A DNA stretch of 64,000 nucleotides from Asanoa ferruginea. GTDB lineage: Bacteria > Actinomycetota > Actinomycetes > Mycobacteriales > Micromonosporaceae. A program made the position numbers and the translations under genes. The stretch lies in NCBI RefSeq assembly GCF_003387075.1, contig NZ_QUMQ01000001.1, positions 1,798,001-1,862,000 on the forward strand, read 5' to 3'. Below, piece after piece: positions 8,214 through 51,040 of this stretch (the first letter of the stretch is position 1; each line of letters begins with the position of its first letter). The notes beneath the pieces were generated by a model. That model made no database searches, was not told the DNA's origin, and saw only the letters and a list, made by a program, of their open reading frames with translations.

Positions 8214-8235
8214 ACTGGGTCGGGACGTTGGGCTT

Positions 8236-8504: not shown

Positions 8505-8525
8505 GAGCAGCAGAAGCGACCCGCT

Positions 8526-32763: not shown

Positions 32764-32771
32764 CCGGCCAC

Positions 32772-32960
32772 AAGGCCCACGGTCACCCACCCGCCAGGAA
32801 CGGCAACCCGGCCCGACCAGCCTCAAGGCCCGCAGCCTCCCACCAGCAGGAACGGCAACCCAGCCCGACCAGCCTCAAGGCCCGCAGCCTCCCACCAGCA
32901 GGAACGGCAACCCAGCCCGACCAGCCTCAAGGCACGCGAGCCACCCTCCCGCCAGGAATG
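32772..32960. repeat. 52-bp tandem array downstream of the ClpP-like gene (about 3.6 copies)
   Basis: Units begin at 32772, 32825, 32877 and 32929 with AAGGCCCGCAGCCTCCCACC or a near copy and contain CAGGAACGGCAACCCAGCCC. The last two full units are almost identical. The sequence resembles the 3' end of the clpP-like gene itself (GGCGACCCAGCCTGACC around 32744-32766), but here the stop codon position reads CGA. The array ends near 32960; the remaining ~85 bases to the next gene hold nothing recognisable. Confidence 0.85.
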
Positions 32961-33046
32961 GCGGCCTGACAAAGCCGGCCGCCACGGCCGTCGTCGTGTG
33001 GCGACAACCGCGGGCCGAACCAAGAGGATCGGCCGTAGGCCTTCGG

Positions 33047-34336
33047 CTAGAGGCCGCCGATGTAGCGGCCCGGCGCCATGCGCCGATGTGGGTCGAAGCG
33101 TTGCTTCACCTCCCGCAGCGTGGGTAGGGCGGCCACCGGCCCCCAGAGGTCGATCGACCGCCGTACCGATGGCGGCGCCGACGTGACCACGCACGTGCCG
33201 CCGCGGAAGAGCAGCACCCCGCGCACCGCCGTCAGGATCGCCGACACCCGCTCGACGCCCAGGCTTGCCGGGAGAGCGGCGTGGACGACGCCGGTGCCGG
33301 CGGCGCCGCGGACCGGGACCGGGCCGCCGACCGCGTCGCGAAGCGCGTAGATCGCCGCGTGCAGGTCGCTGATCGGCACCTGTAGCCGGAGCGCCACCTC
33401 GCCCGGCTCGAACGGGTAGCGGTGCCACCAGCGGGGTGGGGTCTCGACCGCTCGGGCGTCGCCGCTCAGGACGGTGACCAGTTGTTCGGCGCGGTCGAGG
33501 ACCTCGGCTCGGCCGCCCTCCAGGAGCAGGGCCACCGTGCCCGGGCCCTGGCGGCTGCGTTGGCGCGGGATCAGGATCGCCCGGTGGGCGGGCAGGTCGA
33601 CCTCGATCGCCGAGGGGGCGACGGAGGCGGCCAGCGCCTGGCGGACCAGGTCGTGCACCTCGAGCGGGGTCCAGACCGAGCGGGTCACCCAGACCCGGGC
33701 CGCGGGAGCGGCCTGGGTGCGCAGCGTCGCCGAGACCAGCAGTGCCAGCGCGCCCTGGGAACCGCACAGCACCTGGTTGAGGCCCGGCCCGTCGGCGGCG
33801 CGCATCGACCAGCCGTCGGCGTGGTGCAGCCGGCCCTCGGCATCGATGTAGCTCACCCCGGTCACCTGCTCGCACGGCGTGCCGTAGCGATGCCGCAGCG
33901 GGCCCGCCTCGTCGGCCGCCAGGATGCCGCCGATCGTGGCGCCGGCCGAGCGCGGGTCGCAGGCCAGCCGGTGGCCGCGCTGGCCCAGCGTGGCCTGCAC
34001 CGCCCGCAAAGGTGTCCCGGCGCCGACCTCGACGGTGAGTTCGCCCGCGTCGCGGTGCCAGATGCCCGCCAGCCGGCCGGTGTCGATGAGCAGGTCGAGC
34101 CGGGCCGGTGGGGAGCCCCAGTCGAGCTTGGTCGCGGCGCCACGCGGGATGACGGCCAGGTTGTGGCTCGCGGCCAGGGCCAGGACGGCCGCAGCGGCCT
34201 CGACCGTGCCGGGTGCGGCCACCCAGCGGGCGGGCACGCCGGCGACCTCGTCGGCCGGGCCGGCCTCCCGCGCGAACTGCGGGCCACAGATCGCTGCCAG
34301 ACGCCGCCCGACGTCGGAGTCGCCCGCCACAGTCAT
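33047..34336 (-). CDS. FAD-linked oxidase, GlcE-like
   Basis: 429 residues from the ATG at 34336 (the earlier ATG would add 15 residues without a clear ribosome-binding site). It has the FAD_binding_4 (VAO-type) fold: VIPRGAATKLDWG, EVGAGTPLRAVQATLGQRG, DPRSAGATIGGILAADEAG and GSQGALALLVSA. Length, low residue conservation in the C-terminal half and lack of an iron-sulfur domain resemble GlcE, a subunit of glycolate oxidase, but no glcD or glcF is adjacent. It may act alone on an alpha-hydroxy acid. It is divergent from oligopeptidase B. Confidence 0.75.
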   Translation of the reverse strand: MTVAGDSDVGRRLAAICGPQFAREAGPADEVAGVPARWVAAPGTVEAAAAVLALAASHNLAVIPRGAATKLDWGSPPARLDLLIDTGRLAGIWHRDAGELTVEVGAGTPLRAVQATLGQRGHRLACDPRSAGATIGGILAADEAGPLRHRYGTPCEQVTGVSYIDAEGRLHHADGWSMRAADGPGLNQVLCGSQGALALLVSATLRTQAAPAARVWVTRSVWTPLEVHDLVRQALAASVAPSAIEVDLPAHRAILIPRQRSRQGPGTVALLLEGGRAEVLDRAEQLVTVLSGDARAVETPPRWWHRYPFEPGEVALRLQVPISDLHAAIYALRDAVGGPVPVRGAAGTGVVHAALPASLGVERVSAILTAVRGVLLFRGGTCVVTSAPPSVRRSIDLWGPVAALPTLREVKQRFDPHRRMAPGRYIGGL

Positions 34337-34405
34337 GCCGCAATCGTACACATGTTCGAATGGCCTGCAACGACTGTCCACAGCCGGCCGGGTAGCGTGA
34401 CTTCC

Positions 34406-36508
34406 GTGACCGACGAGTCAAAGCCCCCTGTCGCGAAGCGGGTTCACCGCGAACGCACCCATCACGGCGACACCATCGTCGACGAGTACGCATGGCTCGC
34501 GGAAAAGGACGATCCCGACACGCTCGACTACCTCAAGGCCGAAAACCGCTACACCGAGGCGGTGACCGCCCACCTCGCGCCGCTGCGGGAGAAGCTGTTC
34601 GGCGAGATCCGGGCCCGCACCCAGGAGACCGATCTCTCGGTGCCCACCCGGATGGGGCAGTTCTGGTATTACACCCGCACCGTCGAGGGCCAGCAGTATC
34701 CGATCCACTGCCGGGTGCCGCTCGACGACCCGACCGACACGACGCCGCCCGCCACCGGCGACGGCGCCCCGCTGCCGGGCGAGCAGATCCTGCTCGACGG
34801 CAACGCGCTCGCCGAGGGGCACGAGTTCTTCTCCCTGGGGGCGTTCGACGTCAGCCCTGACGGCAACCGGCTCGCCTACTCGACCGACTTCACCGGCGAC
34901 GAGCGCTTCACCCTGAAGATCAAAGACCTGCGCACCGGCGAGGTGCTTCCCGACGAGGTGCCGGACACCTTCTATGGCACTGCCTGGTCGTACGACGGTG
35001 GCACGCTCTTCTATCTGACCGTCGACGACGCGTGGCGCCCGCACCGCGTGTGGCGGCACACGGTCGGCGCACCGACCGGCGACGACGCGATCGTCTACGA
35101 GGAGCTCGACGAGCGGTTCTGGGTCGGTGTCGACCTGACCCGCTCGCAGCGCTACGTGCTGATCGACGCCGGCAGCAAGATCACCAGCGAGGTCCGGGTG
35201 ATCCCGGCCGACGACCCGACCTCCGAGCCGGCGTTGATCGCGCCGCGGCGGCAGGGCGTCGAATACTCCGTGGAGCACCACGGGCACCGCTTCCTGATCT
35301 TGCACAACGACGGCGCCGAAGACTTCGAGTTGGCCTACACGTCGGTCGACGACCCCAGCGGCTGGGTCACAATGGTTCCGCACCAGCCCGGCACCCGGCT
35401 CGAGTCGGTCGACGCGTTCGCCGAGCACCTGGTCATCTCGTTGCGCCGCGACGGCCTCAGTGGCCTGCGGATCCTTCCGCTCGGCGAAACCGACGGCTAT
35501 GACATGCGGTTCCCCGAACCGATCTACAGCGTCAACATCGATTCAAACCCGGAATACCAGACCGCCAGCGTACGGCTGCGCTACACCTCACTGACCACAC
35601 CGGAATCGGTGTACGACTACGACCTGGCCACCAGTGAGCTGATCCTGCGCAAGCGCAAGCCGGTGCGACCCGGCCCTGACGGGCGCGAGTTCGACCCGGC
35701 CGACTACGAGCAGCAGCGCGAGTGGGCGCTGGCCGACGACGGCACCCGGGTGCCGATCTCGCTGATCCGCCGCAAGGGCACCCCGCGCGACGGCTCGGCG
35801 CCGTGTGTCCTCTACGGCTACGGCTCCTACGAGGCCTCGATGGACCCGTGGTTCTCGGTGCCCCGCCTGTCGTTGCTCGACCGCGGCATGGTCTTCGCGG
35901 TCGCGCACGTGCGCGGCGGCGGCGAGCTGGGCCGGCACTGGTATGAGGACGGCAAGCTGCTCGCCAAGAAGAACACGTTCAGCGACTTCGTCGCCTGCGC
36001 GCAGCACCTCGCCAAGGCCGGCTGGACCTCGCCCGACCGGCTGGTCGCCCGCGGCGGCTCGGCCGGCGGCCTGCTGATGGGCGCGGTGGCCAACCTCGCG
36101 CCGCAGGCGTTCACGGCGATCGTGGCCGAAGTGCCCTTTGTGGACCCGCTGACGTCCATCCTGGACCCGTCGTTGCCGCTGACCGTGATGGAGTGGGAGG
36201 AGTGGGGCAACCCGCTCGCCGACGCCGAGGTCTACGAATACATGAAGTCCTACTCGCCCTACGAGAACGTCTCCGATGTGGACTATCCGGCGATCCTGGC
36301 GGCCAGCAGCCTCAACGACACCCGGGTGCTCTACCACGAGCCGACCAAGTGGGTGGCCCGGCTGCGGGCCACCGCGGAGCGCGGCCATTACCTGTTGAAG
36401 ACCGAGATGGGTGCGGGCCACGGCGGTCCGAGCGGCCGCTACGACGCGTGGAAGGACGAGGCCTTCATCGCGGCCTGGATCCTCGACCGCGTCGGTCTCG
36501 CTGGCTGA
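34406..36508 (+). CDS. ptrB: Oligopeptidase B (S9A family serine peptidase)
   Basis: 700 residues from the GTG at 34406. The N-terminal propeller (~75-400) is followed by an alpha/beta-hydrolase domain. The nucleophile is ARGGSAGGLLMG (Ser near residue 550), the charge-relay Asp is in ASSLNDTRV (~635) and the His in MGAGHGGPSG (~670). LYGYGSYEASMDP and VAHVRGGGELGRHWYEDGK are signatures of oligopeptidase B, which cuts short peptides after Arg/Lys in the cytoplasm. The Glu residues that set the basic P1 preference cannot be confirmed here. The gene is followed by a strong hairpin at 36520. Confidence 0.93.
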   Translation: MTDESKPPVAKRVHRERTHHGDTIVDEYAWLAEKDDPDTLDYLKAENRYTEAVTAHLAPLREKLFGEIRARTQETDLSVPTRMGQFWYYTRTVEGQQYPIHCRVPLDDPTDTTPPATGDGAPLPGEQILLDGNALAEGHEFFSLGAFDVSPDGNRLAYSTDFTGDERFTLKIKDLRTGEVLPDEVPDTFYGTAWSYDGGTLFYLTVDDAWRPHRVWRHTVGAPTGDDAIVYEELDERFWVGVDLTRSQRYVLIDAGSKITSEVRVIPADDPTSEPALIAPRRQGVEYSVEHHGHRFLILHNDGAEDFELAYTSVDDPSGWVTMVPHQPGTRLESVDAFAEHLVISLRRDGLSGLRILPLGETDGYDMRFPEPIYSVNIDSNPEYQTASVRLRYTSLTTPESVYDYDLATSELILRKRKPVRPGPDGREFDPADYEQQREWALADDGTRVPISLIRRKGTPRDGSAPCVLYGYGSYEASMDPWFSVPRLSLLDRGMVFAVAHVRGGGELGRHWYEDGKLLAKKNTFSDFVACAQHLAKAGWTSPDRLVARGGSAGGLLMGAVANLAPQAFTAIVAEVPFVDPLTSILDPSLPLTVMEWEEWGNPLADAEVYEYMKSYSPYENVSDVDYPAILAASSLNDTRVLYHEPTKWVARLRATAERGHYLLKTEMGAGHGGPSGRYDAWKDEAFIAAWILDRVGLAG

Positions 36509-36519
36509 ATGAACGCGAA

Positions 36520-36550
36520 GGGCCTATCCGGTGTGCCCGGATAGGCCCTC
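36520..36550. terminator. Bidirectional hairpin terminator
   Basis: 13-base arms (AGGGCCTATCCGG and its complement at 36538-36550) with a five-base loop lie between the convergent ends of ptrB and the small membrane protein. There is no T tail, as is common for actinobacterial terminators. Confidence 0.75.
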
Positions 36551-36561
36551 GACCAGCGCTG

Positions 36562-36804
36562 TCAGTTGGCCAGCGCGGCGCCGATGATGATGCCGAGCAC
36601 CGCGCCCACCACGCTCGCGCCGGCGGCATACCAGCCGAGCGGCTTGTCGCCGAGCATGGCTGCGACGATGCCCAGGATCAGGCCGAGCAGGCCGAAGGGC
36701 AGCGGAAAGAGGAGCACCGCGCCCACGGCGAAGACGAACGCGATGATGGTGCAGATGCGGGCGGCCGAGCTACGCGGCCGTGCAGGGCTGGTCGGGTAGG
36801 ACAT
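36562..36804 (-). CDS. Small two-helix membrane protein (DUF4190-like)
   Basis: 80 residues with two hydrophobic segments (~17-45 and ~57-78) separated by a short Gly/Lys turn (MLGDKPLGWY). The pattern fits small DUF4190-type proteins common in actinobacteria, of unknown role. GAGGAGTGACGGC lies just before the ATG, a usable ribosome-binding site. It is convergent with ptrB and its start is ~60 bases from the end of the dehydratase gene. Confidence 0.75.
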   Translation of the reverse strand: MSYPTSPARPRSSAARICTIIAFVFAVGAVLLFPLPFGLLGLILGIVAAMLGDKPLGWYAAGASVVGAVLGIIIGAALAN

Positions 36805-36864
36805 GCCGTCACTCCTCGGTTTGTCGGGACGGCGAAGTCATTACCCAACCGGCCCCCGAGATAT

Positions 36865-37815
36865 TCAGGCGGTTGCCGCCACCGACAACACTGCCGGGTC
36901 GACGTTGCCGCCCGAGATCACCGCGACCGTGCGTCCTTGGCGCAGCAGGTCGCGGCGGAACAGGAACGCCGCCGTCGCCACCGCCCCGCTCGGCTCGACG
37001 ACGAGCCGGGAGCGTTGCACCAACCTGGCCGTCGCGGCGGCGATCTGCGCCTCGGTGACGGTGATGATGCCGTCGAGCCGCGCCCGCAGGTGCGCGAAGG
37101 TCAACTCGCTCAGCGGCACCCGCAGCCCGTCGGCGCTGGTGCGGACCAGATCCGCGACGTCCCAGTTGACCAGCGTGCCGCGCTCCAGCGACTCGTGCGC
37201 GTCGCCGGCGAGTTCCGGCTCCACACCGAACACCTGCACGTCGGGCCGGCTGGCCTTGATTGCGGTCGCCACGCCGGAGGCGAGCCCGCCGCCGCCGACC
37301 GGGACCAGCACCACCTCGACGTCGGGACAGTCGGCGAGGATCTCCAGGCCGACCGTGCCCTGCCCGGCGATGATGTCGCGGTGGTCGTAGGGCGGGATCA
37401 GCGTCAGCCCGCGCTCGTCGGCCAGCCGTTGCGCTTCGGCCGCGCGCCGGCTCGGCGGGACCATCAGGATTTCGGCACCGATGTCGCGTACGGCGGCAAT
37501 CTTGATCTTTGGTGCGGTGTCCGGGATGACGACCACGCAGGGTGCGGCGTAGACCCGGGCCGCATAGGCGAGGGCCTGGCCGTGGTTGCCGGACGAGTGC
37601 GTGACCACGCCGCGGGCGCGCTGCTCGGGAGTCAGCCGGGAGACCGCATTGGTGGCACCGCGGAGCTTGAACGAGCCGACGGGTTGCAGGCTCTCGGGCT
37701 TGAGGTGCAGGCCGGGGGCCCAGGCGGCCGGCAGCACGGTGGTGCGCACCACGGAGCCGGCGATCGCCCGGGCCGCGGCTTCGACGTCGTCGACCGAGAT
37801 GAGGTCGACCGTCAC
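36865..37815 (-). CDS. Threonine/serine dehydratase (catabolic type, no ACT domain)
   Basis: 316 residues from the GTG at 37815, which overlaps the GntR stop (GTGA). It is a fold-type II PLP enzyme: VGSFKLRGATNA carries the lysine, THSSGNHGQALAYAA binds the substrate, and VPVGGGGLASG is the phosphate loop. Length and absence of a C-terminal regulatory ACT domain match catabolic threonine ammonia-lyase or serine dehydratase, which release ammonia and a 2-oxoacid. Serine racemase is a related alternative that cannot be excluded. The partner GntR regulator has only a DNA-binding domain. Confidence 0.88.
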   Translation of the reverse strand: MTVDLISVDDVEAAARAIAGSVVRTTVLPAAWAPGLHLKPESLQPVGSFKLRGATNAVSRLTPEQRARGVVTHSSGNHGQALAYAARVYAAPCVVVIPDTAPKIKIAAVRDIGAEILMVPPSRRAAEAQRLADERGLTLIPPYDHRDIIAGQGTVGLEILADCPDVEVVLVPVGGGGLASGVATAIKASRPDVQVFGVEPELAGDAHESLERGTLVNWDVADLVRTSADGLRVPLSELTFAHLRARLDGIITVTEAQIAAATARLVQRSRLVVEPSGAVATAAFLFRRDLLRQGRTVAVISGGNVDPAVLSVAATA

Positions 37816-38045
37816 CCCTCGCTCTCCGGACGGGCAACGTAGACACCCTTGCCCTGGCGACCGTCGAGCAGGCCCTCGGTCTTGAGGACCAGCATGGCGG
37901 ACTCGATCGTCTGGCTGCTCACGCCGTATTGCGCGCACATCTCGCGCTTGGTCGGCAGCTTGGCACCCGGCGCTAGTCGACCATCCTTGATCTGCTCGCG
38001 GAGGTCGTCGGCGACACGTCGGTAGTCCGGCTTGTAAGGGGACAT
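37812..38045 (-). CDS. GntR-family HTH protein lacking an effector domain
   Basis: 77 residues from the ATG at 38045 (MSPYKPDYRRVAD), essentially just the GntR winged helix (LAPGAKLPTKREMCAQYGVS is the recognition unit) with LLDGRQGKGVYVA closing it. No FCD or UTRA ligand domain follows, so it may be a constitutive binder or work with a partner. It begins the operon with the dehydratase (GTGA overlap). The intergenic region upstream is A/T-richer and carries a repeated 14-bp motif (38053-38196). Confidence 0.85.
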   Translation of the reverse strand: MSPYKPDYRRVADDLREQIKDGRLAPGAKLPTKREMCAQYGVSSQTIESAMLVLKTEGLLDGRQGKGVYVARPESEG

Positions 38046-38052
38046 CGGCTCA

Positions 38053-38196
38053 CTTCCGAGTTGGCCTGTCCAGTAGATCACCCTGTTTGCAATCTTGCAA
38101 CTACAAGACGACTAACCAAAGTTGCGAGGCAATGTAGACGTGCCAGAGTTGCCCTGACAGCATGTGTATCTGAAGGCGTTCGCTTCCGAGTTGGCC
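38053..38196. promoter_or_regulatory. Gene-free region upstream of GntR with a 14-bp direct repeat
   Basis: CTTCCGAGTTGGCC occurs at 38053-38066 and again at 38183-38196, bracketing ~115 bases of A/T-richer DNA with short dyads such as TTGCAATCTTGCAA. This is a natural place for a divergent promoter and operator of the GntR protein. From ~38200 to 38428 the sequence is very G+C-rich with no supportable gene (a 71-codon frame from GTG 38164 looks spurious). Confidence 0.5.
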
Positions 38197-38428
38197 CTTG
38201 CGAGACGGGCTCCTTCACCCCCGGTTCGGGCACCGCGCCCGTTCCGAGCCGGGGCGGGCCCGGCGACCCGTCACCGACCCGCCCCGGCGACTCCAGATGG
38301 CCATGCCCGCTCCCGCGCACGCCCCAGCGTGATCCCCCGCGGGAACCGGTCAACGGCCTGCGGCGGCAGCGGTCCGTGACGCAAGGTCCGGGCCGCTGTC
38401 TGTCGCGGACCCTCGAGGAGCTCGGCGG

Positions 38429-38626
38429 ATGTTCTTCAAACGCCCAGACCCCGCCCAGGTGGAGGCGTGGAACCGCACCTACCTGGAGCACACCCGCGAC
38501 CCGCAGGACCCGAGCCGATGCGCGGTCTCCGGGTGCACGGGCCGGTTTCCGTGCGCGCCTCGGGTCGAGGCTGCGGAACTGCTGATCCTGGCCGGCATCG
38601 GCGTGCCCGACGACCCAGGTCAATAG
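38429..38626 (+). CDS. Small Cys-containing hypothetical protein
   Basis: 65 residues (start ATG preceded by GAGGAGC at the right distance). It contains RCAVSGCTGRFPC, a possible metal-binding cluster, and a short helical N-terminus (VEAWNRTYLEHTR). No family is recognised with confidence. It is shorter than most annotated genes but has a good ribosome-binding site and does not overlap anything else. From 38627 to 38796 nothing was found. Confidence 0.5.
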   Translation: MFFKRPDPAQVEAWNRTYLEHTRDPQDPSRCAVSGCTGRFPCAPRVEAAELLILAGIGVPDDPGQ

Positions 38627-38796
38627 GCGGACCTGCAAAGGCGTTTACCAAGAAATCGGGCTGGGACCACCATGGGAGCGCACGAGGAACTGCCATCGCA
38701 GCAGACGAGGCCGACGGCTGATCGAATATCTGTCGGCGCACCCCGGTTCTGTTCCTCCGCCAGCGCGGATTTAGCACCCAACCAGTCGAACGTGGT

Positions 38797-40344
38797 TCAG
38801 CTCTGCTTCGCCGGTGGGCGGGCCGGACCGGCGGCGATTTGGGCCAGGCGGGCGACCGCGGCCACCACGATCGCCTCGGTTTCGGTGCCCTGCAACGGGA
38901 GCTTTTTGCGCCGGCGGACCGCCCACGTGTGGTTGAGGTCGTCGACGAAGCGTTGCCGGTCGGACAGGAACGCCAGCTCCGGGTCGGCGCGGGCCTGGTC
39001 CCACATCAGCTCTTCGGTCGCGGCCAGTAGGGCACGTCCGAGGTTTGCCCATGCCAGCGGCAGGTAGGCGGCGGACTCGACCCGCTCGGCCGCGCACGAA
39101 TAGAGACAAGCGATCGCGTAGAGGGTGCTCGAGTCGGCGGCGGCCTTTGGCGGCTGGTCGCGCAACTCCTCGGCCGCTACCGCGGTCGCGGCCGGGTCGC
39201 CGGAGAGTAAAGCGCACTTGAGGCGGCGGACGCGTTGGCGCTCGCGTTCGTCGGCCAGCTCCGTCGCGGTCGCCGAGCCGGCGTTGTCGCCTGGGTTGGT
39301 GGCCAGCCGCTGCTCCGCCTCGCCCCAGCTCTCGCTCGCGTCGAGGAACGCCCGACGGGCCTTGGCCTCGACGTTTTCGACGCGGTAGGCGAAGCCCAGC
39401 CGCTCTTGCACCGCGCCGCGGATCGACGCCGGGCGGTGGTAGGCGCTCAGTGCGGTGCCGACCTGGGAAAGGTCGTCGAGTGCCTCGGCGCCGAAGGCCA
39501 GCGAGTGGTCGGCGAACTCCTTCATCGCGTCCAAGGTCAGCGCAGCCGCCAGCATGCGCTGGAGCTCGAGGCGGGTGGTCAGGGTCTTGCGCCGGCTCAG
39601 CCACGGCACCGCCAGCGAGCGCGCCGGGGTCGCCCGCAGCCGGCGGGCGACCAGCCGCAGCGCCACCCAGTGCGCGGCCGGCTCGATCAGGGTGACCAGG
39701 CGCTCCTGCCACGACTGGCCGGCCGGTTGGACGCCCGGCGGCTCCCAGAGCGTCGTCGCCGCGATCGGTGATCCGTCGAGCTCGTGCAGCTCGATCGCGA
39801 GCCCGAGCCGCTGGTTGCCGCTCTCGCCGCGGAGCAGCGGCGCCGTCTGCACCAGGCAGCCGCGTGGGTTGGGCAGCGCCGAGCTGAGCGCGCCCAGGAT
39901 GCCGTCGGCCTGCCCCGGCGCGACCGCGCGCAGGCCGTTGGCCACGGTCGCCATCGTGTCTTTGGCCGCCGAGGTGATCGGCTCGGTGTCGTTGGTGATC
40001 GCGACCTCGGCCGGCAGCCGGCGCAGCCGCACGTCGCGCCGGAACACGTCGTCGACGATCCCCCGCGCCGCCGCGGCCTCGTCGGTCAGCGCTGCCTGGA
40101 CGCGTTGCCGCAGCCAGGGTGACAGCGTCAACGCCTCGCCCTCGCTGCCGGCGATCGCCGCTGGCAGGGGTGCGGTGTCGTTGATGACGAGTTGCTGGCG
40201 CAACCGCTCGCGGATCGCCCGGGACAGCCCGACCAGGATCACCACCACCGCGACGACCGCGGCGGCGGCCAGCGTCGCCTTGCTGATCGTGTCGGCGAGC
40301 GCGCCGACATCGTCGATGCTGAAAGCGAGCAGGGGCCGCGCCAT
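38797..40344 (-). CDS. Membrane-anchored protein with helical repeat-like domain, unknown function
   Basis: 515 residues. One membrane segment near the N-terminus (AAAVVAVVVILVGL, ~27-42) is followed by a long soluble region. The middle (~60-270) has beta/alpha character, and the second half (~270-500) is a succession of Ala/Leu-rich amphipathic helices resembling TPR-like repeats (LGFAYRVENVEAKARRAFLDASESW; YLPLAWANLGRALLAA). No catalytic motif is recognised. It is divergent from a papain-like cysteine protease candidate across an ~83-bp gap, so the pair may act together, but this is inference. Confidence 0.75.
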   Translation of the reverse strand: MARPLLAFSIDDVGALADTISKATLAAAAVVAVVVILVGLSRAIRERLRQQLVINDTAPLPAAIAGSEGEALTLSPWLRQRVQAALTDEAAAARGIVDDVFRRDVRLRRLPAEVAITNDTEPITSAAKDTMATVANGLRAVAPGQADGILGALSSALPNPRGCLVQTAPLLRGESGNQRLGLAIELHELDGSPIAATTLWEPPGVQPAGQSWQERLVTLIEPAAHWVALRLVARRLRATPARSLAVPWLSRRKTLTTRLELQRMLAAALTLDAMKEFADHSLAFGAEALDDLSQVGTALSAYHRPASIRGAVQERLGFAYRVENVEAKARRAFLDASESWGEAEQRLATNPGDNAGSATATELADERERQRVRRLKCALLSGDPAATAVAAEELRDQPPKAAADSSTLYAIACLYSCAAERVESAAYLPLAWANLGRALLAATEELMWDQARADPELAFLSDRQRFVDDLNHTWAVRRRKKLPLQGTETEAIVVAAVARLAQIAAGPARPPAKQS

Positions 40345-40427
40345 TGCATCTCCAATCGTCCCGGCTCAATCTAGAGAAAGCGCCGCCGTCGGGCGACCCC
40401 TGTGGACAACCAGCCGAGGGAGGGAAG

Positions 40428-42098: not shown

Positions 42099-42129
42099 CT
42101 TAAGGGATCAAGGAAGGCGTTAGCACTCT

Positions 42130-42147
42130 TGTGCTAAGTGGCGCTAC
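42130..42147. promoter_or_regulatory. Palindromic operator-like site upstream of the alkB-like gene
   Basis: TTAGCAC-TCTT-GTGCTAA is a perfect 7-bp inverted repeat, 10 bases before the alkB-like start and 31 bases from the galT start, in the divergent promoter region. Each half matches the outer half of a CIRCE element, but the CIRCE nine-base spacer is absent. Confidence 0.6.
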
Positions 42148-42156
42148 GCTGCGGTA

Positions 42157-42792: not shown

Positions 42793-42994
42793 CAGACCGC
42801 CCGGCGCCAGACCCCGCAGGCGCCAGACCCGCAGGCGCCAGACCCGCAGGCGCCAGACCCGCAGGCGCCAGACCCGCAGGCGCCAGACCCGCAGGCGCCA
42901 GACCCGCAGGCGCCAGGCCCGCAGGCCGACCCGGCGTCAGGCCAGCAGAGCCGGCCCCGCGCCAGGCCAGCAGACCCACCCGGCGTCAGCTAGC
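42781..42994. repeat. 15-bp tandem array between convergent genes, flanked by a 13-bp direct repeat
   Basis: GCAGGCGCCAGACCC recurs at 42816, 42831, 42846, 42861, 42876, 42891 and 42906, giving seven near-perfect copies. GGCGTCAGCTAGC stands on both sides (42781-42793 and 42982-42994) and contains the stop codons of both convergent genes (alkB-like and epimerase). The ~60 bases on the right are a degraded extension of the same sequence. Confidence 0.9.
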
Positions 42995-43877: not shown

Positions 43878-43887
43878 GAGACCCTCC

Positions 43888-43944
43888 AGTGATGTCACTT
43901 GATGACATCACTACCGTAGCAGGTGATGTCACCAAGTGACATGA
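43888..43944. promoter_or_regulatory. Two TetR operators in the divergent promoter
   Basis: Site 1 (43888-43912) is AGTGATGTCA-CTTGA-TGACATCACT, a perfect 10-bp inverted repeat. Site 2 (43924-43944) is TGATGTCAC-CAA-GTGACATGA with one mismatch. Both share the core GATGTCA and lie between the epimerase and TetR starts. Confidence 0.8.
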
Positions 43945-43959
43945 CTAGACTCACTCGCT

Positions 43960-44520
43960 GTGGGGCGATGGGAGGCAGACGCGAGCGGCCGGCTCCGCGA
44001 GGCGGCGCTCCAGCTCTATGTCGAGCGCGGCTTCGAGCAGACCACCGTCGCCGAGATCGCTGCCCGGGCCGGGCTCACCGCCCGCACGTTCTTCCGGCAC
44101 TTCGCCGACAAGCGGGAGGTGCTCTTCGGCGGTGCGGCCGACCTGCAGGCGCACCTCGTCGACGCGTTGGCCACAGCGCCGACGTCGGCCTCACCCATGC
44201 AGGCCGTCGGCGCCGCCCTGGACGCCGCCGCCGCGGCGTTGGGGCAGCACCGCGAACACTCCGTGCAGCGCCAATCCGTCATCAACAGCAATGCCGAGCT
44301 ACGCGAACGCGAGTTGATCAAGATGGCGACGCTGTCCAACGCGCTGGCTGAGGGCCTGCGGCAGCGCGGCGTCCACGAGCCGGACGCGAGCCTGGCCGCC
44401 GAGACCGGCATCGTCGTGCTGCGGGTCGCCTACGAACGCTGGATCAGCGAGCCCGACGGGCCAGACCTGGCCCAGACCATGCGCGACGCGCTCGACCGGC
44501 TGAAGACCGTCGCCGGCTGA
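43960..44520 (+). CDS. TetR-family regulator
   Basis: 186 residues. N-terminal helix-turn-helix (VERGFEQTTVAEIAARAGLTARTFFRHFADKREVLF, ~20-60) followed by an all-helical ligand domain that has no recognised family. The GTG start is chosen because the protein then begins just before the typical first helix. It is divergent from the SDR-like gene and likely represses it and itself through the two palindromes at 43888-43944. A 33-bp repeat array follows its stop codon, although that array belongs to the opposite-strand kinase gene. Confidence 0.9.
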   Translation: MGRWEADASGRLREAALQLYVERGFEQTTVAEIAARAGLTARTFFRHFADKREVLFGGAADLQAHLVDALATAPTSASPMQAVGAALDAAAAALGQHREHSVQRQSVINSNAELRERELIKMATLSNALAEGLRQRGVHEPDASLAAETGIVVLRVAYERWISEPDGPDLAQTMRDALDRLKTVAG

Positions 44521-44545
44521 CCGCCCGCGCGAAGCCCGACCAGCC

Positions 44546-45067
44546 GACCGCGCCGGGCGCCTCAGAGGCCGGCCAACACCAGCGCCGGGCGCTTCAGAGG
44601 TCGGCCGGCCGCCCCGCGCGGGGCGGCTTCAGAGGCCGGCCAGCCAACCGCGCCGGGCGCCTCAGAGGTCGGCCAGCCAACCGCGCCTGGCGCGTCAGAG
44701 GCCGGCCAGCCAACCGCGCCGGGCGCCTCAAAGGTCGGCCAGCCAACCGCGCCGGGCGCTTCAGAGGTCGGCCAGCCAACCGCGCCTGGCGCCTCAAAGG
44801 TCGGCCAGCCAACCGCGCCGGGCGCTTCAGAGGTCGGCCAGCCAACCGCGCCTGGCGCGTCAGAGGCCGGCCAGCCAACCGCGCCGGGCGCCTCAAAGGT
44901 CGGCCAGCCAACCGCGCCTGGCGCGTCAGAGGCCGGCCAGCCAACCGCGCCTGGCGCCTCAAAGGTCGGCCAGCCAACCGCGCCGGGCGCGTCAGAGGTC
45001 GGCCAGCCAACCGCGCCTGGCGCGTCAGAGGCCGGCCAGCCAACCGCGCCGGGCGCGTCAGACGTCG
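44546..45067. repeat. 33-bp tandem array, ~16 units, each containing a copy of the kinase 3' end with its stop codon
   Basis: The landmark TCAGAGG or TCAAAGG occurs every 33 bases from 44661 to 45057 (13 exact spacings), with three degraded units before (44561, 44593, 44629). The last unit is the true 3' end of the kinase gene (TCAGACGTCGGCC). As 33 is eleven codons, the kinase reading frame and the TGA stop (TCA on the plus strand) are preserved in every unit. No gene can be supported between 44521 and 45057; the long minus-strand frame here is only a repeat artefact. Confidence 0.93.
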
Positions 45068-45978
45068 GCCAACACCCGCGCCTCGCCCATGATCGCGGCG
45101 CCGCCGGGCACGTTGTCGTGGTGCGCTAGCCACAGCGCCGCCTCGACCCGGCGGGCCACCGACCACAGCACGATTCGTTCGGCGGCGAGCGAGAGTTCGT
45201 CGGCCAACACCTGGACGCGGCGGCGCAGCACCGCTGCCGGGTCGGGATGGGCGAGCGGATCATCGACCTGTTCGAGCAACGGCCACGGGTCGTACCCCGG
45301 GTCGCCGATCATCGGTTTGGGGTCTATCGCGACCCAGCCACCGTCGTACGCCGAGAGGATGTTTCCGGGGTTGAAGTCGCCGTGCAGCAACACCGCGCGA
45401 TCGGCCGACCCGGGGAGTTGCCGCAACAACCCGACGCCCTCGGCAACCAGACCGGGGTCATAGCCCGGGCGGATCCGGGCCATCCGCTCCTCCGCGACGT
45501 CCGCCCACTCGGCGGTCACCGAGCCGAGCCGTTCGAGCTCCTCGGCCGGCCGCGCCTGCCAGAGGAGGCGCAACACCGCGCAGCCGGCGCGCAACCGGTC
45601 TTCGGGCTCGGCCGTCGAGTCGGCGAGTGGCAGCCCGGGCTCGCACCGCTCGAGCAGAAGCGCGTGCCGAGACGGATCATGAGCCAGCAGGTGTACGGCG
45701 CCCCGCCCGTTCCACGAACGCAGTGCCACGGGCTCGCCGTACATCCCGCGGTGTGGCCAGCCGATTTTGACTATCGCCCTGGTGCCGTCGGGCAGTTCGG
45801 CCGGCGCGACCCAGCTACAGCTACCGGCGTGTAGCGGCGGCGCCAACCGCAGCCCGAAGGCCGCGCGCACCTGCTCGACGAGCGACGGCAGCTCGGCCAG
45901 CCACCGCCGCCCGTCGGGGAGCCGGCTGAGCTGCTGCACCATCGGCAGCGTCGCCGGCACCAGGTCGAAACCGCGCAT
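45058..45978 (-). CDS. APH(6)/streptomycin-kinase-like phosphotransferase
   Basis: 306 residues with the kinase-like fold of aminoglycoside phosphotransferases. The catalytic loop LLHGDFNPGNIL (near residue 200, HxDxxxxN) and the metal-binding IDPKPMIGDPGYD (~220) are intact. The IDPKPxxGDPxYD form and the ALLLERCEPG stretch are typical of the aminoglycoside/hydroxyurea resistance kinase family (PF04655). Whether it phosphorylates streptomycin or another compound is unknown. Its 3' end is repeated as a 33-bp array downstream. Confidence 0.83.
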   Translation of the reverse strand: MRGFDLVPATLPMVQQLSRLPDGRRWLAELPSLVEQVRAAFGLRLAPPLHAGSCSWVAPAELPDGTRAIVKIGWPHRGMYGEPVALRSWNGRGAVHLLAHDPSRHALLLERCEPGLPLADSTAEPEDRLRAGCAVLRLLWQARPAEELERLGSVTAEWADVAEERMARIRPGYDPGLVAEGVGLLRQLPGSADRAVLLHGDFNPGNILSAYDGGWVAIDPKPMIGDPGYDPWPLLEQVDDPLAHPDPAAVLRRRVQVLADELSLAAERIVLWSVARRVEAALWLAHHDNVPGGAAIMGEARVLADV

Positions 45979-45988
45979 GGGCCAAAGG

Positions 45989-46537
45989 TTAGGGCTGATA
46001 GTGGCTCACGACGACCCGGCCGTCGAGCACGCGCGAATCGATCAGTTTCAGGTTGTGGCGTTGCCCTGGGTCGGTGAAAAGCTGCCGGCCACCGCCGAGC
46101 ACGACCGGGTGCACGGCGACGTGGTATTCGTCGATGAGCCCCAACGCGGTCAACGACGCGGCGGCCGCGGCGCCGCCGGTCAACAGCAGATCGCCGCCGG
46201 GCCGGTCCTTGAGCGCGGCAACCTCGTCGGCGCCGACCACCTTGCTGGTCCAGTCATCGCCCGGATGGCTGTGCGAGATCACGATCTTCTCCGTCGCCCG
46301 CCAGAAGGGCGCGAAGGACGCGACGTGTGGATCGTCCGACATGGACTCAGCGTTCGGCCAGAAGCCCACCATCATCTGCCACACCGCGCGCCCGAACAGC
46401 AGGGTGTCGACCCGCTTGTCCAGGCTCTCGGAGTAGGCCGACAGCTCCGGACCCATCACCGTCCAGTCGAACTCGCCGTTGGGTCCGTCGATGAAACCGT
46501 CGACCGACGCGTGCACCCAGTAAATGATCTTCCGCAT
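45989..46537 (-). CDS. Dihydrofolate reductase-like protein (RibD C-terminal family)
   Basis: 182 residues from the ATG at 46537, with GAGGAGCC just upstream. It starts in the usual way (MRKIIYWVHASVDGFIDG), has TLLFGRAVWQMM and a glycine-rich nucleotide-binding loop (LLTGGAAAAASL), and the VVLGGGRQLF motif near the end, as in the RibD_C family of NADPH-dependent reductases. These are unlikely to be the essential DHFR; the substrate is unknown. It lies 10 bases upstream of the kinase gene on the same strand. Confidence 0.85.
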   Translation of the reverse strand: MRKIIYWVHASVDGFIDGPNGEFDWTVMGPELSAYSESLDKRVDTLLFGRAVWQMMVGFWPNAESMSDDPHVASFAPFWRATEKIVISHSHPGDDWTSKVVGADEVAALKDRPGGDLLLTGGAAAAASLTALGLIDEYHVAVHPVVLGGGRQLFTDPGQRHNLKLIDSRVLDGRVVVSHYQP

Positions 46538-46568
46538 GGCTGGCTCCTCGGGCTCGCTCGTGTTGCGT

Positions 46569-47690
46569 TCACCCTGAGGTCGGAGCCGACTCGCGCTCTT
46601 CGACATGCCGGAGGAACCGTTCGCCAATCTCGGTGACGTCGGTTGCGGTCAGGTCCAGCGCGGGCCCCGAGACGGTGATCTCCGTCATCGCCACACCCGG
46701 CACCTCCGTCTCCCGCCAACCAGCGGCGAACCACACCTTCTCCTGCTCGGCGAGGGCCAGCGCAGCGGCGTCGAGCGCCTCGGCCGGGTGCGGCAGCCAG
46801 AGCCGGAAGCGTTGGGTGTGCGGCGGTTCCGGGTAGACGCGCGCACCGGGCAGCCCGGCCAGCGCCGCGGCGACGGGCTGCGCGTGCCGCACGTAGTCGG
46901 GGACCCGCGGCAACTCGCGGTCGATACCCGCGAGCGCGCTCAGCGCGGCCGGCCACTGCTGGTAGAGCATGCCGCCGTAGCGGTGCCGCCAGACGCGGGC
47001 GTAGGCGACGAACTCCGCGGTGCCCGCCAGCGCCGCACCGCTGATGCCGCCGATCGTCTTGTAGAACGAGACATAGATGCTGTCGGCGAGGCCGGCGATC
47101 TCGGCCAGGCCGTGCCCGAGGTGCGGCACGGACTCCCAGATCCGGGCGCCGTCGAAATGCACCCGCGCACCGATGCCCCGGGCCGCTTCGGAGACGGCGA
47201 CGAGCTCGTCCCAGGTCGGCAGGACAAACCCGGCATCCCGGAGCGGGAGTTCGATGACCACGGCGCTGACCGGCTCGGCGAGGGCGGTGATCTCCTCGGC
47301 GGTGGGATTGCGCGGCTCGGTCGTGGGCCAAGTGCTGCACAAACCGCTGAGCTGGGCGTACGCGTGCCGCTCGTGCACCTCGAGATGCGTCAGCGGATGC
47401 ATGGCGACGGTGTGCCGCCCGCTGCGATCGGCGCCGTAGCGCAGGGCCACCTGCTGGGCCATCGTGCCGGTGGGAAAGAAGACCGCGGCCTCGGTGCCGA
47501 GCAGGCCGGCCACCCGCTCTTCGAGGGCGGTCACCGGGCCGTCGCCGTAGGCGTCTGGCTGACCATCCAGGTCGCCGCCGGCTTCGAGGTCGGCCAGCCG
47601 GTCGCGCATGGTCCGCGGCCGGTCGCCGGACAGGATCTGCTCGCACGCCGCCATCGCGGCAATGCGACGGTGCTTCGTGTTGTCGGCCAC
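46569..47690 (-). CDS. Threonine aldolase/beta-eliminating lyase-like PLP enzyme
   Basis: 373 residues of the aminotransferase-fold beta-eliminating lyase family (Beta_elim_lyase). The Schiff-base lysine lies in YVSFYKTIGGISGAALAG (near residue 215), the conserved Asp/Gly region is RVHFDGARIWES, and AVFFPTGTMAQQVAL is the cofactor pocket. Low-specificity L-threonine aldolase is the closest activity (threonine or allo-threonine to glycine and acetaldehyde). It lies 31 bases upstream of the DHFR-like gene in the same direction. Confidence 0.85.
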   Translation of the reverse strand: MADNTKHRRIAAMAACEQILSGDRPRTMRDRLADLEAGGDLDGQPDAYGDGPVTALEERVAGLLGTEAAVFFPTGTMAQQVALRYGADRSGRHTVAMHPLTHLEVHERHAYAQLSGLCSTWPTTEPRNPTAEEITALAEPVSAVVIELPLRDAGFVLPTWDELVAVSEAARGIGARVHFDGARIWESVPHLGHGLAEIAGLADSIYVSFYKTIGGISGAALAGTAEFVAYARVWRHRYGGMLYQQWPAALSALAGIDRELPRVPDYVRHAQPVAAALAGLPGARVYPEPPHTQRFRLWLPHPAEALDAAALALAEQEKVWFAAGWRETEVPGVAMTEITVSGPALDLTATDVTEIGERFLRHVEERESAPTSG

Positions 47691-47737
47691 CCGCGAATCC
47701 TCCCAGGCGTCACCCGCCTGGTCGCGGTCGCGCCGGC

Positions 47738-48091
47738 TCAGCTACCGAGGTAGAGCTCACCATCGCGCTCGGTCACCGGCTTCCGCCCGAGCGGCAGCAC
47801 CCGGGTCAGCATGCGGTAAAGGAAGTCCAGACCGGGCACCTTGGCGTAGTTGCCCTGCGGTCCCCGGACCATCCGGCCGGTGCCGACGTCGTAGGCCGAG
47901 TGGTGCCAGGGGCAAACCAGGCAACCGTTCTCGTCGATGTTGCCGCCCGCCAGGTCAGCGCCGAGGTGGCGACACTTGCGCGTGACCGCGAAGTAGCGCC
48001 CATTGGCATTCCCGACCGCATAGCGGCCCACGCCCACCACCTTGCCCGGTGAGAGGTCGGCGGCGGTGCCCACTCGCTGCGGTGCGCTCAT
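47738..48091 (-). CDS. Rieske [2Fe-2S] ferredoxin-like protein
   Basis: 117 residues from the ATG at 48091, with an excellent ribosome-binding site (GGAAGGAGG). Both cluster-binding motifs are complete: CRHLGADLAGG (C-x-H) and CLVCPWHHSAYD (C-x2-H). There is no oxygenase or nitrite reductase domain and no membrane anchor, so it probably acts as a soluble electron carrier or small redox partner. The redox partner is not in the window. The 294 bases upstream contain no gene apart from the tRNA at their far end. Confidence 0.87.
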   Translation of the reverse strand: MSAPQRVGTAADLSPGKVVGVGRYAVGNANGRYFAVTRKCRHLGADLAGGNIDENGCLVCPWHHSAYDVGTGRMVRGPQGNYAKVPGLDFLYRMLTRVLPLGRKPVTERDGELYLGS

Positions 48092-48385
48092 GGTGCCTCC
48101 TTCCACAGGCCTGCGAGCCCTGCCTTTCGCTATCCACGCTAGGCCCGGCTTGCCGACCTGGCGGATAGCTTGCCCAAGATCGTGCTTCGGATGTGGCTCG
48201 GCCCACACCGGCCCGGGAGCAGCTCCGCCACGGGCGTCTGCTCCGCCCGACAGGCCGCTGACCTGCACTGTTCCGAGCCCGTTGGTGCTCTGGAGCAACC
48301 CGGGCGGTTGCCAGGAGGCGACATCCCGGCCTAATCCGGGAACCCCCTCCACGTTTTCTCGCAGGTCAGGTACCCTAAGCCCCGC

Positions 48386-48458
48386 GGGCTGCTAGCTCAA
48401 CCGGCAGAGCAGTGGACTTTTAATCCATGGGTTCAGGGTTCGAGTCCCTGGCGGCCCA
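48386..48458 (+). tRNA. tRNA-Lys (anticodon TTT)
   Basis: A 73-base cloverleaf: acceptor GGGCTGC pairs with GCGGCCC (one G-U), the T arm CAGGGTTCGAGTCCCTG is standard, and the anticodon loop CTTTTAA gives TTT. The CCA end is not encoded (the sequence goes on as CACA). A 33-bp hairpin follows at 48482. Confidence 0.96.
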
Positions 48459-48481
48459 CAATTCGGCATGCTGATGCCGCC

Positions 48482-48514
48482 TGGCTCATTTCAAGCGATG
48501 CTTGAAATGAGCCA
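48482..48514. terminator. Strong hairpin after the tRNA
   Basis: 14-base perfect arms (TGGCTCATTTCAAG and its complement) with a five-base CGATG loop. The arms are A/T-richer than the surroundings, and the hairpin ends 2 bases before the opposite-strand orphan gene. It probably terminates both transcripts. Confidence 0.8.
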
Positions 48515-48516
48515 CG

Positions 48517-49341
48517 TCAAAGAGAAGCGACCAGTGCCGCGTCTATTGCACGCCGAAGGTCACCAAATCGCGCAACCAGATTCTCGTAACGCGTCAAAAA
48601 TGACCTGATGTTCGAGCTACTGGTCCGCCCGGTCGGGAAATCTCGCTCGAGAGCACTGTAGCGGTCGGCCGGATTCGCCGACGACAAGGCCGACCAAAGG
48701 CGATCCAGGCATTGGTCGACCTTCGCCAGGTTGGCGTTCTCCAGCGGAGGCAGCCCGGCTTGGATAATTCGCGCCTTGGCGCCTTCGTGTGCACCCTTCC
48801 AGAGATCCGTCAGCTGCCGAACGTTGGCGTCGGATTCGCTATCCGGATGCCATACGGTCCAGAGCCTTACGATGGCTCCCAGCACTTTCTGCCACTCCCG
48901 CGCCGTGCCGGCACCCTCCGCGCCGTGGGCCGTGTCGTATAGCTCGCGAGCCTCGCGCAAGCCGGATTCCAGCCTGTCCGCCAAGCTCTTGCCAATGACC
49001 TCGTCGAGGGACGTCGACATTGCGATGAGCGCGTTCCGCAGGTCGCTCAGCGATTCCGCCCTTATGCGCTGGACGGATTGCAGGTAGCGGAGGACCAACA
49101 TGGCGAAGGGGATGCCGAAACACGCCGCCGTCAAAGACGAGACGAAGTTGATGAAGAATGGCCGGTCAGTCCACCAACCCTGGTCATCCCCGAGAATCCC
49201 CAAGATCCAAAGGCCGGACCCGCACACGAGAAGGAGGAGCATTATCCGTTGAATCTGCCGTCCCGCGTCACGCCACGATGCGACGACGCCTGCGCGATTG
49301 AAGTGGGCATTCCCGGTCGAGGGCATAAACAATTTTGGCAC
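48517..49341 (-). CDS. Orphan membrane protein with cytoplasmic helical domain
   Basis: 274 residues (GTG at 49341; an ATG five codons later is equally possible). Two N-terminal membrane segments (~33-50 and ~63-83) are followed by ~190 residues of charged helix, probably a coiled coil or bundle. No family is recognised. By eye its base composition is clearly lower in G+C than its neighbours, with codons such as AAA, TTT and ATT, and it sits directly beside a tRNA gene, a common target for integration. It may have arrived by horizontal transfer, although no integrase is seen. Confidence 0.7.
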   Translation of the reverse strand: MPKLFMPSTGNAHFNRAGVVASWRDAGRQIQRIMLLLLVCGSGLWILGILGDDQGWWTDRPFFINFVSSLTAACFGIPFAMLVLRYLQSVQRIRAESLSDLRNALIAMSTSLDEVIGKSLADRLESGLREARELYDTAHGAEGAGTAREWQKVLGAIVRLWTVWHPDSESDANVRQLTDLWKGAHEGAKARIIQAGLPPLENANLAKVDQCLDRLWSALSSANPADRYSALERDFPTGRTSSSNIRSFLTRYENLVARFGDLRRAIDAALVASL

Positions 49342-49376
49342 TAGTCGTCAAGTCTCTGTCGATCAGTGCCGAGTCG

Positions 49377-49997
49377 TCAGGTGCCGGTCGGAGGCGCGCT
49401 CATCGCTGCCGCCAGGAATGTGATCGCCCATTGTCGGGCTGCCACGGAGGACGGGCTGGCCGGGGCGCGCTGGTTGTAGATCTGGACCCGGTCCACGGCG
49501 GTCACGGCGAGGATCCCCCGCATCCGGAACCACAGTTCGTCTTCGGAGAGGGCGGGCAGTGCGCGGGCGAGGGCCGCCAGATAGCGATCGCGAACCAGGT
49601 CCTCGGCCGGGCCGGTCCAGTCGCGCATTTCCTGGGCCGGGTCGCTGATGATCGTCACGATCAGCCGGGACGTCTGGGCACCGCCCTCATCGCCGGCGGG
49701 CATCTCGTCGAACAGCGGCCCCGCGAACGCCTCCACCAGGGCGGCCACCGAAGGATCCGGCGTTCGGGCAAGAAGTTGGTCGAGCCCGGCGGACTGCGCG
49801 GCGTTGATGGGCTCGATCACGCGGCGAGCGACCGCGGCGAGCAGCTGCGCCTTCGAGCCGAAGTAGTAGCCGACGGCGGCCAGGTTCGCTCCCGCGAGGT
49901 CGGTGACCGCGCGGATCGAGGTGCCACGGAAACCGCGCTCGGCGAAGAGGCGTTCGGCTGCGTCGAGGATCTGGGTGCGGGTGTCGGGGGACGCCAC
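49377..49997 (-). CDS. TetR-family regulator
   Basis: 206 residues from the GTG at 49997. The helix-turn-helix (FAERGFRGTSIRAVTDLAGANLAAVGYYFGSKAQLL) is typical, and the C-terminal domain resembles the TetR_C_36 type. It is divergent from a PanE-like gene, and a palindrome (50008-50036) lies between them. Confidence 0.9.
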   Translation of the reverse strand: MASPDTRTQILDAAERLFAERGFRGTSIRAVTDLAGANLAAVGYYFGSKAQLLAAVARRVIEPINAAQSAGLDQLLARTPDPSVAALVEAFAGPLFDEMPAGDEGGAQTSRLIVTIISDPAQEMRDWTGPAEDLVRDRYLAALARALPALSEDELWFRMRGILAVTAVDRVQIYNQRAPASPSSVAARQWAITFLAAAMSAPPTGT

Positions 49998-50007
49998 GCG
50001 GCGTACT

Positions 50008-50036
50008 ATACAGACGTTTGAATCAAACGTTCGTAT
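50008..50036. promoter_or_regulatory. TetR operator between tetR and panE-like genes
   Basis: The core ACGTTTG-AAT-CAAACGT is perfect, and 13-base arms from ATAC to GTAT pair with two mismatches. It sits 11 bases from the TetR start and 20 bases from the proposed panE start, so binding would block both promoters. Confidence 0.75.
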
Positions 50037-50055
50037 GAACCGCGAAGGGGCTGCC

Positions 50056-50937
50056 GTGAAGCTGCTCGTGTACGGGGCCGGAGTGCTCGGCAGCATCTAC
50101 GCCGCCCGGCTGCACGAGGCCGGGCACGATGTCTCGCTCCTGGCCCGGGGCGAGCGCCTGGCCGCGCTGCGGCGTGACGGTGTGCGGCTCGCCGAGGGAA
50201 CCAGCCAGGTGGTCAGGCGGATACCGGTGCCGGTGGTCGAGCGCCCGTCCGGCGGCTACGACCTGATCACCGTCTTCGTCCGCACCCACCAGGTGGACGC
50301 GGTGTTGGAGTCGCTCGCTGGGGTCGAGGGCGACGTGCTGTTCCTGCTCAACTGGGCGGCCGGCGCGGAGCCGCTGGGTGCGGTGATCGGCCACGAGCGG
50401 GTGTTGCTCGGCTTCGGCACGACCGGCGGCACGATGGACGGCGATGTGGTCCGCTACCGCCCGACCAGCCTGCTCACCCGCCTGGTGTCGATGCCGGTCG
50501 GCGAACCCGACGGCCGCACCACCCCGCGAGTCCAACGGATCGTGCGGGCGTTCCGGGCCGCCGGGATCAACGCCAAGGCCGAACCCCGGATGGATGCCTG
50601 GCTCAAGACGCACGCCGCGTTCGAGGTGCCGCTCGGGCAGGCGGTGATCGCGGCCGGCGGCCCGACCGCACTGGCCGACGATCCGGGCGCCGTCCGCGAC
50701 ATGGTCCGCCTCATGCGGCAGAACCTGGCCGCCATGCCGACGGCGCCCGTCCCGCGCGGGTTCGTCGCGTTGCGAACGCTGCCCGAAGGGCTGCTCGTGA
50801 CCGTGCTGCGGCGCTTTCTGCGCAGTCAGACAGCCGCACACAGCGGGCTCAACACCGCTTCTCCCGGGGCGGAGGCCGCCGAACTCGACCGGCTGGCCGA
50901 GCAGTTGCGGGCCATGCGAGGGTCCGGCCGGCGATAG
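50056..50937 (+). CDS. Ketopantoate reductase family protein (PanE/ApbA)
   Basis: 293 residues from the GTG at 50056 (GAAGGGG upstream); an ATG 21 bases earlier would begin inside the operator. The N-terminal YGAGVLGSIYAARL is the NADP-binding loop, and AWLKTHAAFEVPLGQAV is the central region with the conserved lysine. The enzyme may make pantoate or reduce another 2-oxo acid. Regulation by the divergent TetR suggests an inducible role rather than housekeeping pantothenate synthesis. A 38-bp repeat array begins at its stop codon. Confidence 0.85.
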   Translation: MKLLVYGAGVLGSIYAARLHEAGHDVSLLARGERLAALRRDGVRLAEGTSQVVRRIPVPVVERPSGGYDLITVFVRTHQVDAVLESLAGVEGDVLFLLNWAAGAEPLGAVIGHERVLLGFGTTGGTMDGDVVRYRPTSLLTRLVSMPVGEPDGRTTPRVQRIVRAFRAAGINAKAEPRMDAWLKTHAAFEVPLGQAVIAAGGPTALADDPGAVRDMVRLMRQNLAAMPTAPVPRGFVALRTLPEGLLVTVLRRFLRSQTAAHSGLNTASPGAEAAELDRLAEQLRAMRGSGRR

Positions 50938-51040
50938 CCGACCGCGGTCACCTCGCCCGGCCGAGCAGCAACCAGCCGACCGCGGTCACCTCGCCCGGCC
51001 GAGCAGCAACCAGCCGACCGCGGTCACCTCGCCCGGCCGA
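50936..51040. repeat. 38-bp tandem array (three units) carrying copies of the neighbouring gene 3' end
   Basis: GTCACCTCGCCCGGCCGAG recurs with TCA at 50948, 50986 and 51024. The third unit is the true 3' end (Leu-Leu-Leu-Gly-Arg-Ala-Arg and stop) of the membrane protein on the minus strand; the other two are nearly exact copies, stop codon included. The period is not a multiple of three, so copies are in different frames. Confidence 0.93.

Follow-up and report, generated by a model that had tools for sequence, protein, structure and literature searches.

Repeat arrays at gene 3' ends in the window, i.e., the whole stretch of 64,000 nucleotides analyzed here, are most probably the outcome of ordinary random tandem duplication that is filtered by selection, without any new class of element. 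A gene end is clearly the source of three of the four arrays, the placement of arrays relative to genes fits random placement, and overlaps with 5' ends fall below expectation. The initial annotation had proposed that four arrays within the window share a common mechanism and may form a new class of minisatellites seeded by gene 3' ends.

Arrays between convergent genes

All four arrays that had been described were recovered by TRF (Table 1), and their existence is not a matter of chance. With a score of at least 60 and a period of at least 10, TRF returned 2 rows for a dinucleotide-shuffled set of 204 kb, made of spacers and 60-nt flanks, and 44 intergenic arrays for 1.18 Mb of unshuffled sequence sampled from this genome. 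Each of the four arrays sits between a convergent gene pair, and by reading their units differ from one another in both length and sequence. With head-to-tail units of 15, 24, 33, 38 and 52 bp, each at a single locus according to TRF, they have the structure of minisatellites (VNTRs); arrays were seen to differ between species.

The arrays had been described as beginning at a stop codon. Three of them instead start within the gene and comprise its final codons and stop codon together with part of the spacer. The first copy of array 1 includes the final 23 nt of the ClpP-like gene, array 3 extends 25 nt into the coding end of the kinase, and array 4 extends 32 nt into that of the 187-aa gene, for which no Pfam family was found at an E value of 0.001. 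The kinase and the membrane protein, to which the 33- and 38-bp units are assigned, are both encoded on the minus strand. The opposite borders also touch genes: the stop of the ketopantoate reductase-like gene lies at the left edge of array 4 with an overlap of 2 nt (TRF), and the CTAG in the outer copy of the alkB end also contains the stop codon of the epimerase-like gene that converges on alkB. A search of the genome itself with positions 32700-33900 as query, covering the array 1 region and scoring 40 of 531 candidates, gave five matches of 31-44 bases besides the self-match, none of which covered the array.

Table 1 Genes and repeat arrays analyzed (positions in the window, except for the window itself, which is given on the contig).
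Feature	Position	Strand	Description	Basis
Window	1798001-1862000		part of a 9.07-Mb single-contig genome	
ClpP-like protease gene	32101-32763	+	source of array 1	Pfam CLP_protease, 1.3e-26
Array 1	32741-32962	+	52 bp x 4.2, 87% matches	TRF
FAD-binding protein gene	33047-34381	-	convergent partner of ClpP-like gene; start at 34330 by codon-model gene caller	Pfam FAD_binding_4, 4e-23
AlkB-like 2OG-Fe(II) oxygenase gene	42157-42792	+	probable source of array 2	Pfam 2OG-FeII_Oxy_2, 3.7e-15
alkB end and stop	42780-42793	+	first copy of exact 14-bp repeat	sequence reading
Array 2a	42803-42926	+	15 bp x 8.2, 98% matches	TRF
Array 2b	42909-42989	+	24 bp x 3.3, 79% matches	TRF
Outer copy of alkB end	42981-42994	+		sequence reading
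NAD-dependent epimerase-like gene	42990-43898	-	convergent partner of alkB	Pfam Epimerase, 7.3e-13
TetR-family regulator gene	43960-44520	+	convergent partner of kinase	Pfam TetR_N, 4.8e-14
Array 3	44540-45082	-	33 bp x 16.5, 87% matches	TRF
APH_6_hur-family kinase gene	45058-45978	-	source of array 3	Pfam APH_6_hur, 3.4e-32
Ketopantoate reductase-like gene	50035-50937	+	convergent partner of 187-aa gene	Pfam ApbA, 5.8e-20
Array 4	50936-51055	-	38 bp x 3.2, 98% matches	TRF
187-aa gene ("membrane protein" of the initial annotation)	51024-51587	-	source of array 4	ORF list

The window also holds intergenic arrays away from gene ends, which had been left out of the earlier description. At 6911-8128, a long degenerate array occupies the convergent spacer 6620-8525 and touches neither gene end; it consists of 73/74-bp units with higher orders of 146 and 366 bp at 68-77% matches, and ends in an 84-bp unit at 7967-8128. 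Further along, at 8433-8505, the hexamer GCGACC is repeated perfectly 12.2 times, some 20 bases beyond the stop codon of the minus-strand gene 8526-9425. A 276-bp unit, a multiple of three, is repeated 6.9 times at 82% at 24620-26534 (TRF); as a guess, it is perhaps a repeated signaling domain of a large protein.

Gene ends as clear or probable source of the repeat units

To compare each unit with its own gene end, the 3'-terminal 36 nt of the gene were aligned to the array spacer, and the score was set against those of 1078 other ends from the same genome. The membrane-protein end (score 30) and the kinase end (score 19) were each the best of 1079, with none of the other ends as good, and the ClpP end (score 16.5) was equaled by one. 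The proposed resemblance thus held for three genes. It did not hold for the AlkB end (score 11), which was matched by 101 of the 1078 other ends, and therefore the 15-bp unit alone is no proof of descent. The ends of the convergent partners were unremarkable, since 962 (FAD), 271 (epimerase), 323 (TetR) and 656 (ketopantoate reductase) of the 1078 ends aligned as well. From these alignments, the clpP, kinase and membrane-protein ends are clearly the source of their arrays. Array 2 probably derives from the alkB end, as suggested by the 14 bases at the alkB stop, which recur exactly at the far edge of the array, and by arrays over the same stop in relatives. An origin from gene 3' ends is hence clear for three arrays and probable for the fourth.

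The order of events is indicated by relatives. The four closest named relatives of the ClpP-like protein, at 85-88% identity, belong to Asanoa (Micromonosporaceae), which was taken as the genus. In all six genomes of the genus examined, the ClpP-like gene has the FAD gene as its neighbor; in two of these species (L025/G004 and L027/G005), a further gene, putatively HAD-like by reading, lies between them. The ClpP-like orthologs are 85-89% identical in all five genus relatives, and none of the five has an array in the clpP-FAD spacer by TRF, with the gene pair kept. The clpP end is recognizable throughout, with GKK in 6/6 genomes followed by GDP or PDP in three. Spacer length varies: the stops overlap in G003, and the spacers of G005 and G004 are the longest at about 0.7 kb and 1 kb. 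With the array absent and the clpP end kept, the gene end must therefore be old and the array new. Likewise, no kinase-end array was found in the three nearest relatives of the kinase among 30 loci (G021, G003 and G001, 67-69% identity). Relatives that have the clpP or kinase gene and lack the array thus point to the gene end as the source. Downstream of the kinase relative in G003 (locus L085) lies a 20-bp x 9.1 array that by reading is unlike the kinase end.

For alkB, 79 of 121 family genomes had a match, and the best 30 loci were compared. Arrays on or beside the alkB stop occur at four of these 30 loci, namely in the window (15 bp), in two genus relatives (27 bp each) and in one member of another genus (23 bp). 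A fifth locus (L080), at which a 10-bp array begins 40 nt past the stop, was left out of the count. The two 27-bp arrays may reflect one event. Judging from the different repeat borders, the alkB end was duplicated at least twice, and probably three times when the window array is counted. Relatives of the membrane protein (58% and 49% identity, two of 11 loci) have no TRF array within 250 nt of their stops, and their ends have diverged. The ketopantoate reductase-like genes of the genus are too distant for dating array 4, at a best identity of 34-36%.

To survey gene ends genome-wide, we sampled 60 stretches of 20 kb from the genome itself (59 used) and 20 from each of three relatives (G005, G074 and G003). 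The window and the stretch overlapping it (L128) were excluded from the sample statistics and used in gene-model training. Genes were called with a purpose-written codon model, whose calls outside the four pairs may misplace some ends. For each gene, the final 45 nt were aligned with its own downstream spacer; matches were counted from a score of 20, and spacers under 40 bp were excluded. In the genome of the window, 8 of 438 3' ends had a copy in the spacer, in comparison to 0.10 expected from swapped ends. The phenomenon recurs in other Micromonosporaceae: in the sampled parts of the three relatives, 2/163 (G005), 1/217 (G074) and 3/155 (G003) ends had a copy, far above the swapped-end control. 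Copies of 5' ends in upstream spacers were seen for 0/642 ends in the genome itself, 0/213 in G005, 0/239 in G074 and 2/217 in G003. Pooled, 14/973 3' ends stand against 2/1311 5' ends (Fisher P=0.0004), so that 1.4% of 3' ends overall, and 0.5-1.9% by genome, carry a recognizable copy. By the same measure, 2 of 29 ends in the window reach a score of 18 and one reaches 20. In 200 kb of E. coli K-12, with genes called by the codon model, none of 101 3' ends had a copy, a number too small to differ from 1.4%; over 33.8 kb of spacer, TRF gave three intergenic rows, and the metZWV tRNA genes account for one.

Inspection showed that the eight matches in the genome of the window are mostly clear stop-spanning duplications. 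Four of the alignments cover 41-45 nt with the stop included. One of these four, at L143, belongs to a 62-bp duplication and has 42/42 aligned end bases identical. At L183 (5942-6087), a 71-bp duplication crosses both stops of a convergent pair, and each gene keeps a copy. The weakest match (L153, score 21) is doubtful. These data bear on the idea that the similarity is fortuitous and merely reflects low-complexity, GC-rich repeats beside GC-rich ends. The alkB end, which does not stand out from other ends, would agree with such a coincidence, and for the 15-bp unit alone it is possible. The excess over swapped ends and the long alignments that run through the stop refute it for the overall pattern, for which coincidence is extremely improbable.

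Placement, tolerance and function

Similarity to gene ends does not by itself imply a preference for them. For the placement null, the coordinates of each array were reduced to those of a single unit, which was placed randomly over the spacer and flanking ends. The model was applied to periods of 15-200 bp, which include 42 of the 44 arrays of the genome itself, and arrays that lay in coding sequence for over 60% of their length were tallied separately. Across the four genomes, 14 of 75 intergenic arrays overlapped a 3' end in comparison to 12.2 expected (P=0.29), and P remained between 0.29 and 0.55 across six settings (scores of 60, 100 and 150, two tolerances each). In the window itself, 3 of 6 intergenic arrays with periods of 15-200 bp overlap a 3' end, with 3.3 expected from random placement. 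Enrichment at stop codons, whose genome-wide absence had been named as refuting the idea, disappears in this sample once spacer size and unit length are accounted for, and uniform placement speaks against a mechanism directed at 3' ends. Overlaps with 5' ends were rarer than expected, at 1 of 75 versus 5.6 (P=0.015); with higher TRF thresholds the depletion is less marked (P 0.09-0.10). Periods were divisible by three for 155 of 172 coding arrays and for 39 of 75 intergenic ones. Between 2.1 and 2.7 overlaps were expected in co-directional spacers of the genome itself and 4 were observed, which speaks against a pure filter.

Array density around the four loci exceeds the sample mean, since all four fall in 18 kb and three of these in 8.3 kb. 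Over 59 stretches, the number of intergenic arrays per 20 kb averaged 0.75, with a variance of 0.66 and a maximum of 3, and by Poisson arithmetic such clustering is expected in ~0.5% of stretches, or at two or three places per such genome. The present locus was picked for this very clustering.

A process at transcription ends, in which termination, R-loops or converging polymerases stall or break DNA, could raise the rate of duplication at 3' ends. Besides the position of all four window arrays between convergent genes, the density of arrays lends it some weight. Per 10 kb, convergent spacers of the genome itself held 5.67 arrays in comparison to 2.24 in divergent and 2.5 in co-directional ones; G074 showed a similar excess (5.11 versus 0.42 and 1.84), and G005 a slight one (2.94 versus 1.65 and 2.42). 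However, G003 has no convergent excess (1.74 versus 2.97 in co-directional spacers), 3' overlaps equal those of uniform placement, and convergent spacers lack promoters of the flanking genes, so that tolerance alone predicts the same excess. We therefore regard a raised rate at transcription ends as unlikely, even though the excess in the genome itself could reflect more than tolerance. It is similarly improbable that colliding transcription makes convergent ends in Micromonosporaceae hot spots of tandem duplication, with a rate exceeding that in other untranslated DNA, and stop-spanning duplication a main route by which bacterial convergent spacers originate and lengthen.

Selection for a function, with the arrays acting as bidirectional terminators, RNA stability elements or insulators, was assessed by folding and by pattern scans. 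In the window, 5 of 8 array strands had a folding z below -2, in comparison to 28% of control strands, with the minus strands of the kinase array (-3.3) and the membrane array (-3.6) among them. Across the genome sample, array strands folded no better than controls (mean z -0.67 versus -1.16, 54 strands each, P=0.76; the controls were 27 convergent spacers on both strands, and z was taken against shuffles), and the clpP array gave +1.1 and +0.7. Five terminator-like sites were found in 32000-51500, with 6.2 expected from shuffles, and none lay inside an array; an Rfam scan identified no RNA family in the arrays and reported only a tRNA at 48386-48458. A terminator role is thus unsupported by the pattern scan and by folding relative to control spacers. 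Together with the lack of the clpP array in all five relatives that have the same gene pair, this renders selection for function very unlikely, and nothing in the folding, terminator and Rfam scans points to a selected role that the arrays share.

Since arrays are mostly in frame within genes, few at starts and free at stops and in spacers, random duplication combined with a filter fits the observations. Slippage or unequal recombination would generate duplications without regard to position. Where a local segment spanning a stop codon is duplicated in tandem, copy gain and mutational decay would follow. At 3' ends, such duplications would be kept, since the gene still ends in its upstream copy and stop and the protein is unchanged; in a convergent pair, each gene would retain the outermost copy of its own flank. 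Within genes, duplications would survive mostly in frame, and those at 5' ends would be depleted. The process would be both generic and lineage-specific. We infer slippage as the molecular step, neutrality of the arrays and small ancestral spacers. Slippage predicts microhomology at the junctions; there, residual matches in 16 two-copy arrays measured -1 to 4 nt in nine cases (chance mean 0.86) and 11-12 nt in three, and four were unreadable.

Read by eye, the repeat borders suggest an ancestral convergent spacer of perhaps ~10 bp for array 4 and of almost nothing for array 2; for the clpP-FAD pair, the stops overlap in G003 and the spacers of the other relatives are longer. Near-zero convergent spacers may in this way lengthen to tens or hundreds of bases, and stop-spanning duplication would offer a simple account of convergent spacer growth that is harmless to both genes. 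More generally, repeats that mimic gene ends need a placement null before they are called mobile or seeded elements, and the 1.4% of 3' ends with a copy is a figure that can be checked in annotated genomes.

Comparison with known repeat systems

Among the literature matches listed, no title concerned stop-spanning duplication in bacteria. Mycobacterial MIRUs are spacer repeats whose units overlap codons of the flanking genes, as do those described here. Unlike the arrays of the window, each of which has its own unit, MIRUs form one dispersed family that shares a sequence. They have been described as scattered repetitive sequences at 41 places (PMC2734929).

The rnc-fpg1 spacer of the M. tuberculosis complex is another parallel. 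This minisatellite/VNTR locus consists of direct repeats that occupy a spacer of 279-358 bp, which outside the complex measures only a few base pairs (PMC2734929). There, the array starts 40 bp past the rnc stop, whereas the units found here include the gene end. Reportedly, its length also affects how the gene downstream is expressed (PMC2734929). Repeats of the archaeal Borg elements likewise have independent origins, with periods that are multiples of three in open reading frames and mostly not in intergenic regions, and flanking partial repeats have been proposed as their seeds (PMC9879509). Borg repeats are perfect, A-rich and extrachromosomal (PMC9879509), whereas those studied here are GC-rich, often decayed and chromosomal. 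Set beside these systems, the arrays are a case of local tandem duplication under selection, which is of a known kind and makes a new class unneeded.
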